40,268 nucleotides of DNA from NCBI GenBank assembly GCA_030608565.1, contig JAUWDY010000014.1:1-40268 (forward strand), written 5' to 3'. Shown here in pieces: positions 14,938-23,076 of the stretch. Position 1 is the first letter of the stretch. Each line of letters begins with the position of its first letter. Below the pieces are notes generated by a model. That model saw only the letters and a list, made by a program, of their open reading frames with translations. It was not told the origin of the DNA and did not search any database. This DNA comes from Candidatus Bathyarchaeota archaeon. Lineage in GTDB: Archaea; Thermoproteota; Bathyarchaeia; Bathyarchaeales; Bathyarchaeaceae. A program made the position numbers and the translations under genes.

Positions 14938-14968
14938 CAGCGTTTAAATGCATGCATACAGCGTTTAA
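14938..14968. promoter_or_regulatory. Direct repeats CAGCGTTTAA flanking a GCATGCAT motif
   Basis: CAGCGTTTAA occurs at 14938-14947 and 14959-14968, 21 bp apart (about two helical turns), with ATGCATGCATA between them. It lies about 170 nt upstream of the acyl-CoA mutase operon and looks like a two-site operator. Confidence 0.5.
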
Positions 14969-15049: not shown

Positions 15050-15292
15050 TTAGGATTCAGGGGTGCTGATAAGCCCCCTAAACACCTCTACCTCTTCCCT
15101 AAGCGCCTCCACTTCCTCTCGTAACTTGCCTACTCTCTCCTTCCCCCTTGCTTTAAGGTCTTCTATCTCCTCGAAAAGGCTCGCTTTCTCCCTTTCCAGC
15201 TTCTCCAGCTCCTTACGCAACTTTCTGAGAGTGTCAGCAAGTCCTCGTTCAATCTTCTTCAAATCGTGTACACTCGCATTTATGCTTATCAT
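15050..15292 (-). CDS. Small coiled-coil protein
   Basis: An 80-aa highly charged protein. Residues about 12-72 form an almost uninterrupted heptad pattern (KKIERGLADTLRKLRKELEK and onward), predicting one long coiled coil. No other domain is visible. It follows the ParB-like coiled-coil gene on the same strand with a 74-nt gap, so the two may be partners, for example through coiled-coil pairing. A GCAT-type motif lies right after the stop codon. Confidence 0.65.
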   Translation of the reverse strand: MISINASVHDLKKIERGLADTLRKLRKELEKLEREKASLFEEIEDLKARGKERVGKLREEVEALREEVEVFRGLISTPES

Positions 15293-15366
15293 GTTGGTTC
15301 CAGTGCTAGAATTGAACTTCAGCTACAGCAATCAGGAAGCCAATGCTGAAGACCTGCATGTCATAA

Positions 15367-16542
15367 CTAGTTCGATCGCTTCAAAGGTAGTGTATCGGGT
15401 GTAGATGGCACAACTGGTTTTTCAGGGACAATGGAAACTGTTGCGCTCCTTTTCACCAAGTAGTGGTCCCCTTTCCTGTATACAACGCATGGATTTCGGC
15501 AGTGTGGGCAGTCAAAGTTCAATGCTTCTAAGAAAAACGCTTTCTCTTTAAGGAAACTAGTCTTATCCTTCTCCAATTTCTTGATCTTTCGCGTTAGGCT
15601 TCTCATTTCTTTTTGGACTTCAGTGATGTTTATCTTCATCTCCTTTTTTGCTTCCTCTTTAATACGACGTCTTTCCTCTTCTTTGAATCGCTGAGCCATT
15701 TTCTTGGCTTCTTCTCTTATCCGGAGTCTTTCAAGTCTCTTCCTCTCCTTCTCCATGAGCTTCTTTTTCTCCAGCTTTTGCTTGTTCATAACCTCTGCAG
15801 CAGCCTTCTCCTTTGGAGTTAGGGCTTTCTCTTGCTTCTTTCTTGCCATCTTCTTCAGTGTTTTAGCTGCTTCTTCAAAGTCTTTTGCAGTTTCAAGTTT
15901 GACAACCTTTGGAGCAACCTTGGTCAAAACCTTCTTGGCTGCATCTATACGCATTTCCTCAACTTTTTCTTTCTGCTTAAGGATAATTTTCTTAGTTTCC
16001 CTCAAGGTTAATTTCCTATTGATAATCTCATTAATGATGATACGGCCTTCTTTGATACTCCTACCTATGACGTTTTCTAGAGCAACCATGTGTGAAACGC
16101 TGATCTTCCCGGTCCACAATGCTTTCTGGATGCTGTCAGGAAACTTGAATATGTTGAGGTGTGCTAAGACCCAATGGAAATCAACGTTGAGCTCTTTGCT
16201 TATCTCCCAAGGTGTCATGCTTTCATCTGTAAGTTTCTTGAAATACTTCGCCTCCTCCTCAACAGTGTAATTCTCTCGGATCTTGTTTAGTTTGTACACC
16301 GAACGTCTGATAATCCCTTGTTTTAGTTGGACAACTCGGACAGGCGCAGCCTTCCAACCGAGTTTTTTGAGGGCTCTCAATCTTCTCTCACCATCAATTA
16401 ATTCGTAAGCTTCGCCTTGTTTGCGGACGACCAGTTCAGTAAGAAGCCCATCTCTTTCTATCTCTTGCTTTAGCTCATTTACATCAAAGATTAACCTCGG
16501 TTGATAGGGACTCGGTTTGATTGAATTTATGTCAACTTTCAT
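15367..16542 (-). CDS. ParB/Srx-fold protein with HTH, long coiled coil and C-terminal zinc-binding motif
   Basis: A 391-aa protein. The N-terminal ParB/sulfiredoxin-like domain (about 1-95) has the CTP-binding GERR motif at 51-54. A ParB-type HTH follows (about 105-160, TPWEISKELNVDFHWVLAHL). Residues about 220-335 are a long Lys/Glu-rich coiled coil. Near the C-terminus is CPHC-x3-C (345-352), a possible partial zinc-binding site. ParB proteins load onto DNA as CTP-dependent clamps; chromosomal ParB normally ends in a dimerisation domain, replaced here by the coiled coil and zinc motif. No parA lies beside it. ATG 16542 has GGGGAA upstream. Confidence 0.8.
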   Translation of the reverse strand: MKVDINSIKPSPYQPRLIFDVNELKQEIERDGLLTELVVRKQGEAYELIDGERRLRALKKLGWKAAPVRVVQLKQGIIRRSVYKLNKIRENYTVEEEAKYFKKLTDESMTPWEISKELNVDFHWVLAHLNIFKFPDSIQKALWTGKISVSHMVALENVIGRSIKEGRIIINEIINRKLTLRETKKIILKQKEKVEEMRIDAAKKVLTKVAPKVVKLETAKDFEEAAKTLKKMARKKQEKALTPKEKAAAEVMNKQKLEKKKLMEKERKRLERLRIREEAKKMAQRFKEEERRRIKEEAKKEMKINITEVQKEMRSLTRKIKKLEKDKTSFLKEKAFFLEALNFDCPHCRNPCVVYRKGDHYLVKRSATVSIVPEKPVVPSTPDTLPLKRSN

Positions 16543-16714
16543 TTACTATTCCCCAATCTTACTGCGAGATTCTAACTTAGATAATAAGAAGCTTACTAAG
16601 AACCAACGATACACCAGGTTAACATCGTTCACTAAAAGACACAACAGAATTGAAATATCGTCTCAAAAAAGTAGTATATCTTGTAACATAGTAGGTTGGG
16701 AATTGCATACATGA

Positions 16715-16737
16715 ATGTTAACATATAATGCATGCAT
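16715..16737. repeat. Palindromes between the ParB-like gene and nfo
   Basis: A perfect 10-bp palindrome ATGTTAACAT (16715-16724) is followed by the GCAT-type motif ATGCATGCAT (16728-16737). The core GTTAACAT also occurs at 16618-16625. Both lie in the shared upstream region of the divergent ParB-like and nfo genes. Confidence 0.5.
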
Positions 16738-16826: not shown

Positions 16827-17681
16827 ATGCGTGATGGCGTGAAAGTGAAGTTGGGTTTGCATTTGTCAATTGCAGGCACGATTGACAGGGTTGTTGACAG
16901 AGCTGTGGAGCGGGGGTGTGATACATTGCAGATGTTCTCTCGTAATCCTCGTGGTTGGCGCTCCAAGAAGTTGAGTTTCAGGGAGGTTGAAAGCTTCAGA
17001 AAGAAGCTGAAGCAGAGTGGGATATGGCCAGTTGTTATTCATACGTCTTATCTTTTGAATCTTGCTTCTCCGAAGGAGGATGTTTATCGTAAATCGGTTG
17101 AGGCTCTTGGAGATGAGTTACGTAGAGCTGGGGAGCTGGGTGTTCCTTATGTTGTCACACATCTTGGTAGCCATTTGGGTCATGGGAAGAAGGAGGGGTC
17201 CAAAAGAATCATTGCGTCAGTTAACAACTCTTTTTCTGAGGTTGATAACAAGGTGGTTCTTCTTTTGGAGAACACTGCTGGAACGAGGAATAGCACGGGG
17301 TCTTCCTTTGAGGACATCGAGTATATCGCTTCCAGAATCAAGGATAGAGAACGTATTGGCGTGTGCTTGGATACAGCACATGCCTTTGCAGCAGGGTACG
17401 ACTTGGTTTCTCGAGGAGCTGTTGAACATACGTTGCGGAGATTCGATGAGACAATAGGTCTTAAGGAGCTTAAGCTTGTTCATCTCAATGATTCCAAGCA
17501 GGGTCTTGGCTCCAGACTTGATAGACATGAACACATTGGAATGGGAAAGATTGGGGAGAGAGGATTCAGAAATATCTTGAAGAGCCCGTTGGGACGACTA
17601 CCCTTAATCTTGGAAACTCCTGTTGATGAAAGGAGAAGTGATGTTGAAAACCTGAAAGTTGTGAGAGAACTCGCCAAATGA
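16827..17681 (+). CDS. nfo: Endonuclease IV (AP endonuclease)
   Basis: A 284-aa apurinic/apyrimidinic endonuclease of the Nfo family, which incises DNA 5' to abasic sites in base-excision repair and carries a trinuclear zinc centre. Family motifs with metal ligands are visible in order: HLSIAG near the N-terminus, VIHTSYLLNLA, THLGSHLGHG, LLLENTAG, CLDTAHAFAAGYD, VHLNDSK, DRHEHIGMGKIG and LILETP. Length is normal. ATG 16827 has no ribosome site; an ACTTTATG element about 75 nt upstream could be the promoter. The coding strand is unusually rich in T/G-ending codons compared with psmB or the mutase operon. Confidence 0.95.
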   Translation: MRDGVKVKLGLHLSIAGTIDRVVDRAVERGCDTLQMFSRNPRGWRSKKLSFREVESFRKKLKQSGIWPVVIHTSYLLNLASPKEDVYRKSVEALGDELRRAGELGVPYVVTHLGSHLGHGKKEGSKRIIASVNNSFSEVDNKVVLLLENTAGTRNSTGSSFEDIEYIASRIKDRERIGVCLDTAHAFAAGYDLVSRGAVEHTLRRFDETIGLKELKLVHLNDSKQGLGSRLDRHEHIGMGKIGERGFRNILKSPLGRLPLILETPVDERRSDVENLKVVRELAK

Positions 17682-20187: not shown

Positions 20188-23076
20188 CTATCCTGCCATG
20201 AGTGTTTTCAGCTTTTCAATTTCATTAGCCAAGGCAGGATACAAATTATCTAGAAGTTGGGTTATTTCATCATCTGAGTAACCCATCATTTGAAGAAACA
20301 TGATATCCAATTCTTTTCTGGGAGAAAACTTTGTCTTCATTTGCTCAAGAATACTTGGAAATGAAACGTTCTTTACGGTTTCGAAGTGCTGCAGCAATCG
20401 ATCTCTTTCATGTTTCTTGAGTTTCTTTGGATCCAACATTTGCATCTCATTCATTGCATATTCATGTAGTTTCATCCATGCCCCTCTAGTCTCTGTTCTA
20501 TGAATGAGCATTGCAAGCAAATTAAGGGTGCTATTGAACCACAGCGATAGAATCTTTGCATCATCATCAGACATCCCTTGGATGCACCACATATCAACAC
20601 CCACCATCGGTATTCCAGAGTAGTATGCAAGAAATCTTGTCCCTGTAGCTGAGATGTCAAAACGCCTTGATATTACAAGGTTAGCTAACCTTGGTTCTAC
20701 ATATTTCCTCCATTTCTTTATGTTTGAAGGGTTCTTCATAACCTGTTCAATCCCACTAAAACCCTTGACAATTATAAGATCAAGCAAATCTGTAACGTCA
20801 ATCTTATCCGTTCTCGAAGGTCTTCTAAGTCCCCTTTCTAAGACTTTTTGAGGAACCCTCAGTGTCTGTTTTGTAAACCTATTCTCTATCGCTATAGTGG
20901 TTTTATTCAAGTTTTTTATAATCCATTCATCAATATTCTTGATTGCCCTGAAGGGTTCAACAATGATTGCCCCATGGAAAGGTGGTGCATAATCAAATCG
21001 GAAAACCTCACCCTTCTCTCTTTTTAGAAGTGTTTCAAAGGGTATCATACTATCGGAACTTTCAACCATAATTTTCTCTAGGAGAGAAGGCAATCCCAAA
21101 TCATATGTTGATATGAAAACATATAGATTGTCTATATGTTTTCTTAACTCTTCCTGAGTGACCTTCATAGCAATCATATCGTCATCTGTATACAATTCAC
21201 CAAGTTCTGACCTTTTGACAAACGTCTCCAGCTTTTGAACGCACACTCTGGCTTCTTCGATGGAAGAGGGCAGCTTTTTGAGAGAAGACACACAACACTG
21301 TGTGCCCATCTTTCTTTTGCCTTTTTTAGCAATTAATAAGATCTCTCTGAACTGTGCCCCCTCAGAAAAAGCAGCTCTTTCCCATGCTGTTATGATATGT
21401 TCAATTGTGTATTTCTGAGTTAGCAATTCTCTGACTCCTCTTGCAGATTTCACTCTCAGAATAGTAGCTGGTAAGACAAATGCAATTCTTCCGTCTTTCT
21501 TAACAAATCGATCTGCAAGAAAAGCAAAAAATCCATACAATCCAAGTTGTCCATGTGTGTATTCTTCGAATTCTTTAAATCGTTTTGCAAGAACTGATTT
21601 GTATTCCTTTGGCAACCTTTCCTGTCTTGTAAAGGGAGGGTTCATTATGACTAAATCTGCTTTCTCTAGAGGTATCTCTTCTCCACCTACTCCTTCAAGA
21701 GTAATTGTACCTTTCTTGATGTAAGCTTCCCTTGGAGTGATAGCTCCTTCCTTAAACATGTCCAATGTTGGTCTTCTATAAGCAGCCTTTAGCTCACTGC
21801 AGATTGCTGGTATGATCATGTCAGGCTTCAGCTCTGTCGAGTCCCATACTGCAATTCTCACTTTCTCAGTTTCATGTAGCAAAGCTTGAAGAGAAAGATG
21901 CATAACTGCAAGGTGAGCTGCAAAAGGCATAATGTCAATACCCGTCAAATCATGTTCCAAAAATCTCTTATGATCTTCTAAGGAAATTCCACCTCTGCCA
22001 GTTCGGAGCAATTCTCTCTTTCTTCGATATGCTGCAACAAGCAGAGTGCCACTACCAACAGCTAAATCTATGACTTTTGCATCAGGCTTGTCTATGGATA
22101 ACTGTGCTAGAATCTCTGCAGCTTCGTTGTTTGTATAGAAAGCTGCAACAGCTTTTCTTATGTTGAATGGAATTAGTTCATGGAAGACTTTGCCCAATAC
22201 ATCTTGTCCTATCTTCTCAGGTGCCAAAGCTTTGATCGTCATTATCACTCTTTTTACAGTCTTTGTTGCAGACTCTGGTAGTCTAGAAGCCACATCAAAG
22301 CCGAAAACCGAAGTGTAGTCTTTCTCTAATACAGGTCTAAAATATCTGAGTAAATCACTAGGTTTTCCAATTTTATCTTCATCTATCTCCTCAAAGGCTA
22401 CATCCATTCTAGAAAGGACATGATAAAAAATTATTTGATTTACAAGTAGATAGGTCGCTGCTTGTCTCATTTCTTCAAGAGGATAGCGACCTTCCTCATA
22501 CTGCAAAATGTTTTCAAAAACGGTTTTTCCACCAAAGATATCTTCAAGTTCTTTTCCTCTCAGTATCTTCACACTAGCAGTAATTGATGCTACAGCTTCA
22601 GTCAACACCTTGATTGCAAAACTGGTGTCAGCTTCAACAACAAGGGGTCTTAGAACCTGAGCAGCCATCCAATCAGCCATTTGAGAAAGATTTCCAGCAA
22701 AACGTTGGCTAGGTCTAAAATCCTTGAAAATAGCAGTAGCAACATATTCCAACTTCGGGTCTTTAGCAATCTTCTCTAATATCTCAATACTCCAAGGTTG
22801 CCTCAACTCTTTAGGAAAAAGAACTGCAAAGGCACCCTTAGTCTGAGTATACTTAGAATAATCATAAAGTCTGACCATAGCATCTAGAAGTTTAGCCTCT
22901 GCACCCAACTTTGTTTCAACTACATATTGTGCACCGTTATACAGAAGCATATCAGGCATTAAACGTCCAATTGGAGTAGTGTAAGATATCTCAGTATTTA
23001 CCTTGACACCTCTTTTCTCCAACTCCTTTAACAAGAAATTTCTAATAGTCATCTCTGTAGGCTTAGGAACGCCCAA
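20188..23076 (-). CDS. Single-chain nuclease-adenine DNA methyltransferase (type IIG-like restriction enzyme)
   Basis: A 962-aa protein combining restriction and modification domains. N-terminal nuclease-like region (about 1-160): MPDMLLYNG then VVETKLG gives the PD-(D/E)xK pattern. A helical segment follows (about 165-330). The gamma-type N6-adenine methyltransferase has the SAM motif DLAVGSGTLL and catalytic NPPF. The C-terminal third is expected to recognise the target. No separate S or R subunit is nearby, consistent with a self-contained enzyme. TTG 23076 (GGTG nearby) and ATG 23052 are possible starts. Recognition sequence unknown. It could be active or a solitary methyltransferase with a decayed nuclease. 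Confidence 0.85.
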   Translation of the reverse strand: MGVPKPTEMTIRNFLLKELEKRGVKVNTEISYTTPIGRLMPDMLLYNGAQYVVETKLGAEAKLLDAMVRLYDYSKYTQTKGAFAVLFPKELRQPWSIEILEKIAKDPKLEYVATAIFKDFRPSQRFAGNLSQMADWMAAQVLRPLVVEADTSFAIKVLTEAVASITASVKILRGKELEDIFGGKTVFENILQYEEGRYPLEEMRQAATYLLVNQIIFYHVLSRMDVAFEEIDEDKIGKPSDLLRYFRPVLEKDYTSVFGFDVASRLPESATKTVKRVIMTIKALAPEKIGQDVLGKVFHELIPFNIRKAVAAFYTNNEAAEILAQLSIDKPDAKVIDLAVGSGTLLVAAYRRKRELLRTGRGGISLEDHKRFLEHDLTGIDIMPFAAHLAVMHLSLQALLHETEKVRIAVWDSTELKPDMIIPAICSELKAAYRRPTLDMFKEGAITPREAYIKKGTITLEGVGGEEIPLEKADLVIMNPPFTRQERLPKEYKSVLAKRFKEFEEYTHGQLGLYGFFAFLADRFVKKDGRIAFVLPATILRVKSARGVRELLTQKYTIEHIITAWERAAFSEGAQFREILLIAKKGKRKMGTQCCVSSLKKLPSSIEEARVCVQKLETFVKRSELGELYTDDDMIAMKVTQEELRKHIDNLYVFISTYDLGLPSLLEKIMVESSDSMIPFETLLKREKGEVFRFDYAPPFHGAIIVEPFRAIKNIDEWIIKNLNKTTIAIENRFTKQTLRVPQKVLERGLRRPSRTDKIDVTDLLDLIIVKGFSGIEQVMKNPSNIKKWRKYVEPRLANLVISRRFDISATGTRFLAYYSGIPMVGVDMWCIQGMSDDDAKILSLWFNSTLNLLAMLIHRTETRGAWMKLHEYAMNEMQMLDPKKLKKHERDRLLQHFETVKNVSFPSILEQMKTKFSPRKELDIMFLQMMGYSDDEITQLLDNLYPALANEIEKLKTLMAG

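Follow-up and report, generated by a model that had tools for sequence, protein, structure and literature searches.

An orphan ParB-type protein with a linked coiled-coil gene in a Bathyarchaeial archaeon, probably a clamp module common to viruses or other mobile elements

What a ParB-type protein does in a cell when no ParA is encoded beside it is the question raised by a two-gene locus of a Bathyarchaeial archaeon. Orphan ParB-fold proteins are common, and few of them come with a mechanism that can be tested. The window analysed here, 40,268 nucleotides in length, is one entire contig of a 1.76-Mb genome that is 98.5% complete. A sequence-only reading of this DNA had placed two open reading frames on the same strand, and both were found on the minus strand: the ParB-like protein P0001 (391 aa; 15367..16542), in which a ParB_N CTP-fold and a helix-turn-helix (HTH) are followed by a long helix and a CPHC-x3-C tail, and its small coiled-coil partner P0002 (80 aa; 15050..15292), which starts 74 bp past the parB-like stop. 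In the window, the pair is flanked by genes for methylmalonyl-CoA mutase and endonuclease IV; at other host loci the flanking genes, named by inspection, encode a thermosome, a CDC48-like protein and further products. The host copies examined thus lie in housekeeping surroundings, with flanking genes that vary between loci, and no mobile-element genes were seen around them. An insertion at an empty site was sought in the same-genus non-carrier G025, which gave no clean empty site. The endonuclease IV gene (nfo; window 16827-17681) is placed elsewhere in that genome, which is without the pair (G025:C1:1472417-1473250), so the region is rearranged and no clean empty site can be defined.

P0001 matches ParB_N of Pfam (E 6e-14) and scores 71.2 bits against TIGR00180, passing the cut-off of 58.45, and it aligns with Spo0J, Noc and ParB chains of the PDB over residues 3-195, with E-values down to 1e-20. 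An AF2 model of residues 1-215, derived from 41 sequences, reached a pLDDT of 90.5 and a pTM of 0.81, and a PDB structure search with this model returned Noc and ParB first. The full-length AF2 model was poor (pTM 0.26), and all that is said here of the fold is taken from the residue 1-215 model. The GERR box, or P motif (residues 51-54; 16381..16392, minus strand), holds the retained catalytic Glu (E52, equivalent to B. subtilis E78) and is invariant in 14/14 members of the clade to which P0001 belongs. The HTH region, delimited by alignment and model (residues ~94-143; 16114..16263, minus strand), has a recognition helix unlike that of canonical ParB. The ParB identity proposed earlier, with its GERR box and HTH, is borne out by Pfam, TIGR00180, the PDB chains and the AF2 model, all of which agree.

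In the nucleotide pocket, Leu85 (16288..16290, minus strand) takes the place of the second catalytic Glu (E111 of ENLQR in B. subtilis), while N86 and R89 are retained. This replacement extends to the whole clade of 14, where the equivalent residue is Leu in ten members, Val in three and Met in one, and never Glu (0/14); in the alignment of bacterial relatives it is Glu in 86 of 89. The same 14 proteins retain G32, GERR, N86 and R89. The Gln of the C-motif is found in none of them (0/14), as against 79/89 bacterial relatives, and EN-x-x-R is retained by most of the remaining ParB-like proteins in this archaeal order.

Characterised proteins give an indication of what such a pocket might do. 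The E78Q or E111Q substitution in B. subtilis ParB abolishes hydrolysis while clamp closure is still possible, and the E111Q protein is poorly enriched at parS (PMC8494293). Likewise, the E135A variant of C. crescentus ParB binds CTP, does not hydrolyse it, and entraps DNA poorly (PMC8367383), and VirB, in which one of the two hydrolysis residues is present, is a weak CTPase that acts as a sliding-clamp gene regulator (PMC10770331). By analogy, Leu, Val or Met in place of the second catalytic Glu is expected to result in weak hydrolysis and a long-lived closed clamp, and the P0001 clade is predicted to represent slow-hydrolysing clamps. The poor entrapment by E135A and the poor parS enrichment of E111Q imply that the substitution may also weaken loading, unless this is compensated. 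CTP is the most likely nucleotide of P0001; since the nucleotide specificity of the ParB-CTPase fold is not readable from sequence (PMC12704722) and the C-motif Gln has been lost, P0001 might instead bind ATP or nothing.

Comparison with known systems places P0001 outside partition. A canonical ParABS ParB has in common with it the ParB_N domain with GERR and N-x-x-R boxes, including the E78 equivalent, but the E111 equivalent of P0001 is Leu. All six ParA-superfamily (AAA_31) matches of the genome lie on other contigs and none on that of the window, in agreement with the earlier statement that no parA is nearby, and the ParA-binding motif [LFI]G[KR]G[LFI] was not found in P0001. Within the genome, no canonical parS (TGTTTCACGTGAAACA) occurs with 0-1 mismatches, and allowing up to three mismatches yields 17 matches versus 11 in the control. 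No canonical C-terminal dimerisation domain was encountered either: Pfam reports ParB_N only, and a helix/coil and a CPxC tail are present instead. Without the second catalytic Glu, a ParA-binding motif with an adjacent parA, a parS site or this C-terminal domain, P0001 lacks four defining features of a ParABS ParB and is not one. By fold, box and context it is an orphan ParB-type clamp, with clear TIGR00180/PF02195 similarity outside a parAB operon, as is required of an orphan ParB (PMC12704722). Orphan ParB proteins and ParB-CTPase-fold fusions have already been described as a class, and P0001 has in common with them PF02195 followed by an HTH, the lack of an LG[KR]GL motif, mobile-element relatives, and N6_N4_Mtase fusions in phages (PMC12704722). 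In the literature searched, we found no description of an E111-less clade with a CPxC tail and a coil gene, and 'Bathy' is absent from the main text of PMC12704722.

Among individual members of the ParB world, Noc, a ParB paralogue without ParA, is the best structural and HMM neighbour of P0001. Nevertheless, at 101.2 bits P0001 falls below the TIGR04285 cut-off of 315 and is not Noc; it has no N-terminal extension fit for a membrane helix, its recognition helix and C-terminus differ, and the Noc-binding site ATTTCCCGGGAAAT was not found within the window with up to two mismatches. KorB of plasmid RK2, a CTP clamp for gene silencing (PMC11790492), has a structure that is matched by P0001, but the P0001 locus shows no KorA-type partner and the C-terminus is different. 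The pNOB8-type ParB of Sulfolobus (5k5a/5k5d, also matched by P0001) is archaeal and has a ParB-like N-domain, whereas its CenpA-like C-domain, its ParA and its AspA have no counterpart in P0001 (PMC7333895). VirB of Shigella flexneri resembles P0001 as a ParA-less ParB relative with one of the two hydrolysis residues, and it regulates genes as a DNA-sliding clamp (PMC10770331). VirB is related to plasmid ParB/SopB/KorB, uses another binding site, and no close sequence relationship to P0001 has been shown. To our knowledge, it has no linked coiled-coil gene.

The C-terminus of P0001 had been read as a ~110-residue coiled coil ending in a CPHC-x3-C cluster. One long helix is indeed predicted (residues 243-342 in the full-length AF2 model, at low confidence), but strong heptads are confined to residues ~295-343 (15514..15660, minus strand), where heptad scan, helix prediction and alignment delimit a candidate dimerisation segment. 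Residues 240-295 have instead the highly charged character of an ER/K-type helix, and half of the family lacks much of it. A coiled coil would be a workable dimeriser, since the C-terminal domain of the ParB-like protein ParT can be replaced by a leucine zipper (PMC12260392). The CPHC-x3-C cluster (residues 345-352; 15487..15510, minus strand) is present in P0001 as described, but its invariant part is C-P-x-C only (9/9 complete homologues), the third Cys being found in eight of the nine. Each chain has a single CxxC where its coil ends, which suggests a zinc site common to two chains; such a site may form between the CPxC tails of two P0001 molecules. Taken alone, the Cys tail gave nothing significant against Pfam, and within its own genome it matched only two ParB-like proteins, both part of the query alignment, with no other convincing match.

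Close relatives of P0001 occur in 9 of the 163 genomes of the order. The orthologues represent nine genera at 48-97% identity, far above chance, and a profile search across the class (257 genomes) added one further distant protein, in the same order, and nothing else beyond the nine. They form two groups: group 1 comprises the window genome, G024, G021 and one copy of G012 (G012a), at 70-97% identity to P0001, and group 2 comprises G106, G001, G002, the second copy of G012 (G012b), G151 and G032, at 48-60% identity and with a shorter helix. With G032 left out, cut as it is by a contig end, nine loci could be tested for linkage of the two genes. The coil gene, whose product P0002 is a heptad coil over its full length by heptad scan, follows the parB-like gene at a gap of 6-74 bp in six of these nine (G000, which is the window genome, G024, G021, G106, G001 and G002) and is missing in three (G012a, G012b and G151). 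The pair is therefore kept in both groups, between which the ParB proteins are ~52% identical and the flanking genes unrelated; as the flanks differ, the linkage exceeds plain synteny. Linkage of the two genes, the lack of which had been set beforehand as a refutation of the proposal, is thus conserved.

The small proteins also resemble the clamp itself. In 6/6 pairs, the best ungapped match of the small protein to the terminal coil of its own neighbour fell at the same positions. Tested against heptad-preserving shuffles, this likeness gave p <= 0.002 in the three group-2 pairs and was weak in group 1 (p 0.01-0.2). We infer that the small protein is a duplicated dimerisation segment of the clamp, with which it is likely to pair.

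As to where such a clamp might load, the best candidate is a 25-bp dyad, AACGAT-N13-ATCGTT (16605..16629, minus strand), in the promoter region of the parB-like gene, which could serve as operator or loading site. It lies in a conserved block upstream of the group-1 genes (window genome, G024, G021 and G012). The consensus of these four upstream regions matches exactly at a single place in each of their genomes, in every case beside this gene; the exact matches exist by construction, and the informative part is the absence of others, weaker matches being at control level. In shuffles of the window, 0 occurrences of the dyad are expected. The dyad was not found upstream of the group-2 genes, though their HTH is very similar to that of group 1, and hence another factor may bind it.

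Two palindromes had been put forward earlier as loading sites, and neither can be upheld. The first, ATGTTAACAT (16715..16724), reads ATTTTAACAT in the closest relative, G024, and is thus broken there, yet the orthologue of that genome is 97% identical to P0001. The second, GCATGCAT, sits inside one (16729..16736) of 14 TGCATGCA sites in the window, where 0.85 are expected. TGCATGCA is a genome-wide motif with 332 copies in the genome (~13-fold over-represented), nearly all intergenic in the window, so that GCATGCAT is not specific to the locus. Nor does the density of TGCATGCA track the gene across genomes: very uneven within the family (8 to 225 per Mb), it reaches 113-131 per Mb in the non-carriers G015, G017 and G146 and 10-19 per Mb in the carriers G002, G106 and G032, for a base-composition expectation of ~14. 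A weak trend with the gene appears within one family (Mann-Whitney p = 0.03), led by two carriers of the same genus, so some link between TGCATGCA and the gene may exist. Window sites of TGCATGCA include those at 14949, 15039, 16729, 20082, 24980 and 38530. The 25-bp dyad is a better candidate than either palindrome; should it prove to be where the clamp loads, each genome would have one such site.

The closest relatives of P0001 beyond its host family come from viral contigs. A profile scan of such contigs retrieved three proteins, ~35-48% identical over the ParB part, two of which are fused to an N6_N4 DNA methyltransferase (N6_N4_Mtase). One of the three contigs has a strong integrase match, another a weak tail-protein match, and the third weak major-head and terminase matches. 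An alignment-based scan of genome contigs showed a further clade member (46%) on a Dehalococcoidia contig, with two small HTH genes nearby by inspection. In a 91-row tree, the host family and these viral/mobile proteins form one clade (support 100/99). The host proteins, themselves a group with 100/97 support, are nested in a viral/mobile grade, and the clade as a whole is separate both from bacterial ParB and from the remaining ParB-like proteins of the order. As this tree has no root and its bootstrap had not fully settled, transfer from virus to host is the likely, not the proven, direction.

These results favour an orphan, ParA-less ParB-type clamp with an accessory coil and slow release, engaged in local gene or chromatin regulation and not in partition, a reading that we hold to have about an even chance of being correct. 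They support the earlier view of a ParB-type clamp without ParA, with a linked coil gene and a role other than ParABS partition. The two-gene unit is probably a clamp module common to viruses or other mobile elements, with gene or chromatin regulation as its function. Its mode of action can be outlined by analogy with VirB and KorB. Two P0001 chains would be joined at their C-termini, through terminal coils and CPxC tails and maybe with one zinc ion between them, and the HTH would load the protein at a specific site, most likely its own upstream dyad. The N-terminal nucleotide-binding domains, most likely with CTP, would then close as a ring and slide along neighbouring DNA. With Leu for the second catalytic Glu, hydrolysis would be weak and the closed clamp would persist. 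P0002 probably pairs with the terminal coil of P0001 and in this way would either tune dimerisation or bring in a partner. The outcome would be local regulation of genes or chromatin, including autoregulation. The ParB part belongs to a lineage that is also represented in mobile elements, where this clamp can occur as a fusion with a DNA methyltransferase.

The methyltransferase fusions lead to another reading, in which P0001 is a targeting subunit: a DNA-scanning clamp that delivers an enzyme or host factor through its Cys tail or coil, for instance for modification or anti-virus defence. A strain-variable, defence-like locus lies in the same window, where an Eco57I-type methylase gene (20188-23076) has as its counterpart in G024, between the same conserved neighbours, a segment (L039:12555-16992) that encodes a ParB-like protein and a ParB-methyltransferase fusion and contains two more genes besides. 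Such defence-type genes nearby would suit a targeting subunit, as would the patchy distribution of the family and the N-terminal architecture that it has in common with its nearest non-host relatives, which are encoded on viral contigs and include the two N6_N4_Mtase fusions. The host proteins and their partner, however, have no enzyme domain, PADLOC gave no match for P0001, and in the other carriers examined the genes next to the pair included no matched methylase, which leaves this role fairly unlikely.

Lower still is the probability that we attach to the chromosome-organising clamp suggested by the sequence-only reading. Such a clamp would coat DNA around its loading sites and load or position SMC, with the coil partner as a bridging factor. 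An SMC is encoded in the genome, housekeeping genes surround the host copies examined, and B. subtilis ParB EQ mutants retain SMC recruitment (PMC8494293), so low hydrolysis is compatible with such a role. On the other hand, a single candidate site per genome and no canonical parS do not fit this role, and the presence of the gene in so few genomes of the order, with many relatives more than 90% complete lacking it, argues against an essential chromosome-organising function. Least probable, and indeed very unlikely, is a partition protein left over from a plasmid or virus that had integrated, either served by a ParA encoded far away or non-functional by now: the mobile-element relatives, a decayed tail remnant in G118 and the ParA-superfamily ATPases elsewhere in the genome would suit it, but P0001 has no ParA motif, is intact with an invariant GERR across genera, and no mobile-element genes accompany the host copies examined.

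Returning to the slow-release regulatory clamp, a wider and more tentative proposal, to which we give well under an even chance, is that the clade is a separate ParB-fold lineage of archaeal chromosomes and mobile elements that has given up efficient hydrolysis permanently, in which a copy of the coil acting in trans sets the lifetime of the clamp and the C-terminal payload is exchangeable (a methyltransferase in viruses and the CPxC tail in hosts). For VirB, the question has been raised of how a clamp that hydrolyses poorly comes off DNA (PMC10770331). The clade-wide loss of one catalytic Glu, the linked host gene that resembles a regulator made from the coil of the clamp, and the single conserved candidate loading site per group-1 genome bring this question, along with the sharing of ParB clamps by viruses and hosts, within direct reach of experiments on two small proteins and a DNA of 25 bp. 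What is new in the present case is the clade-wide loss of the E111 equivalent, the viral/mobile relatives, some of them methyltransferase fusions, the promoter dyad with its uniqueness, and the resemblance of the partner to the coil of the clamp.

Finally, tails of the same kind were seen in other contexts. A second ParB-like protein of the same genome (G000:C6:9461-10363; L049/L002), phylogenetically distinct from P0001, ends in a similar tail (...YECPHCKRHYVIKCNGKRDWVE) and has a canonical IENLHR box. This lineage, with its CPHC...WVE tail, has an orthologue in G118 (L051:3845-4786). The tail remnant of G118 mentioned above (L048:8883-9038) is without a ParB part and reads YPHC for CPHC, which suggests gene loss in that lineage. 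On one viral contig, the gene at L069:7352-8092, which overlaps the ParB-like gene and has no PHROG match, closes with a CPHC...C..C sequence resembling a zinc ribbon. Next to the second ParB-like gene at G000:C6:9461-10363 are, by inspection, a radical-SAM-like gene and then a three-Cys-motif partner-like gene.
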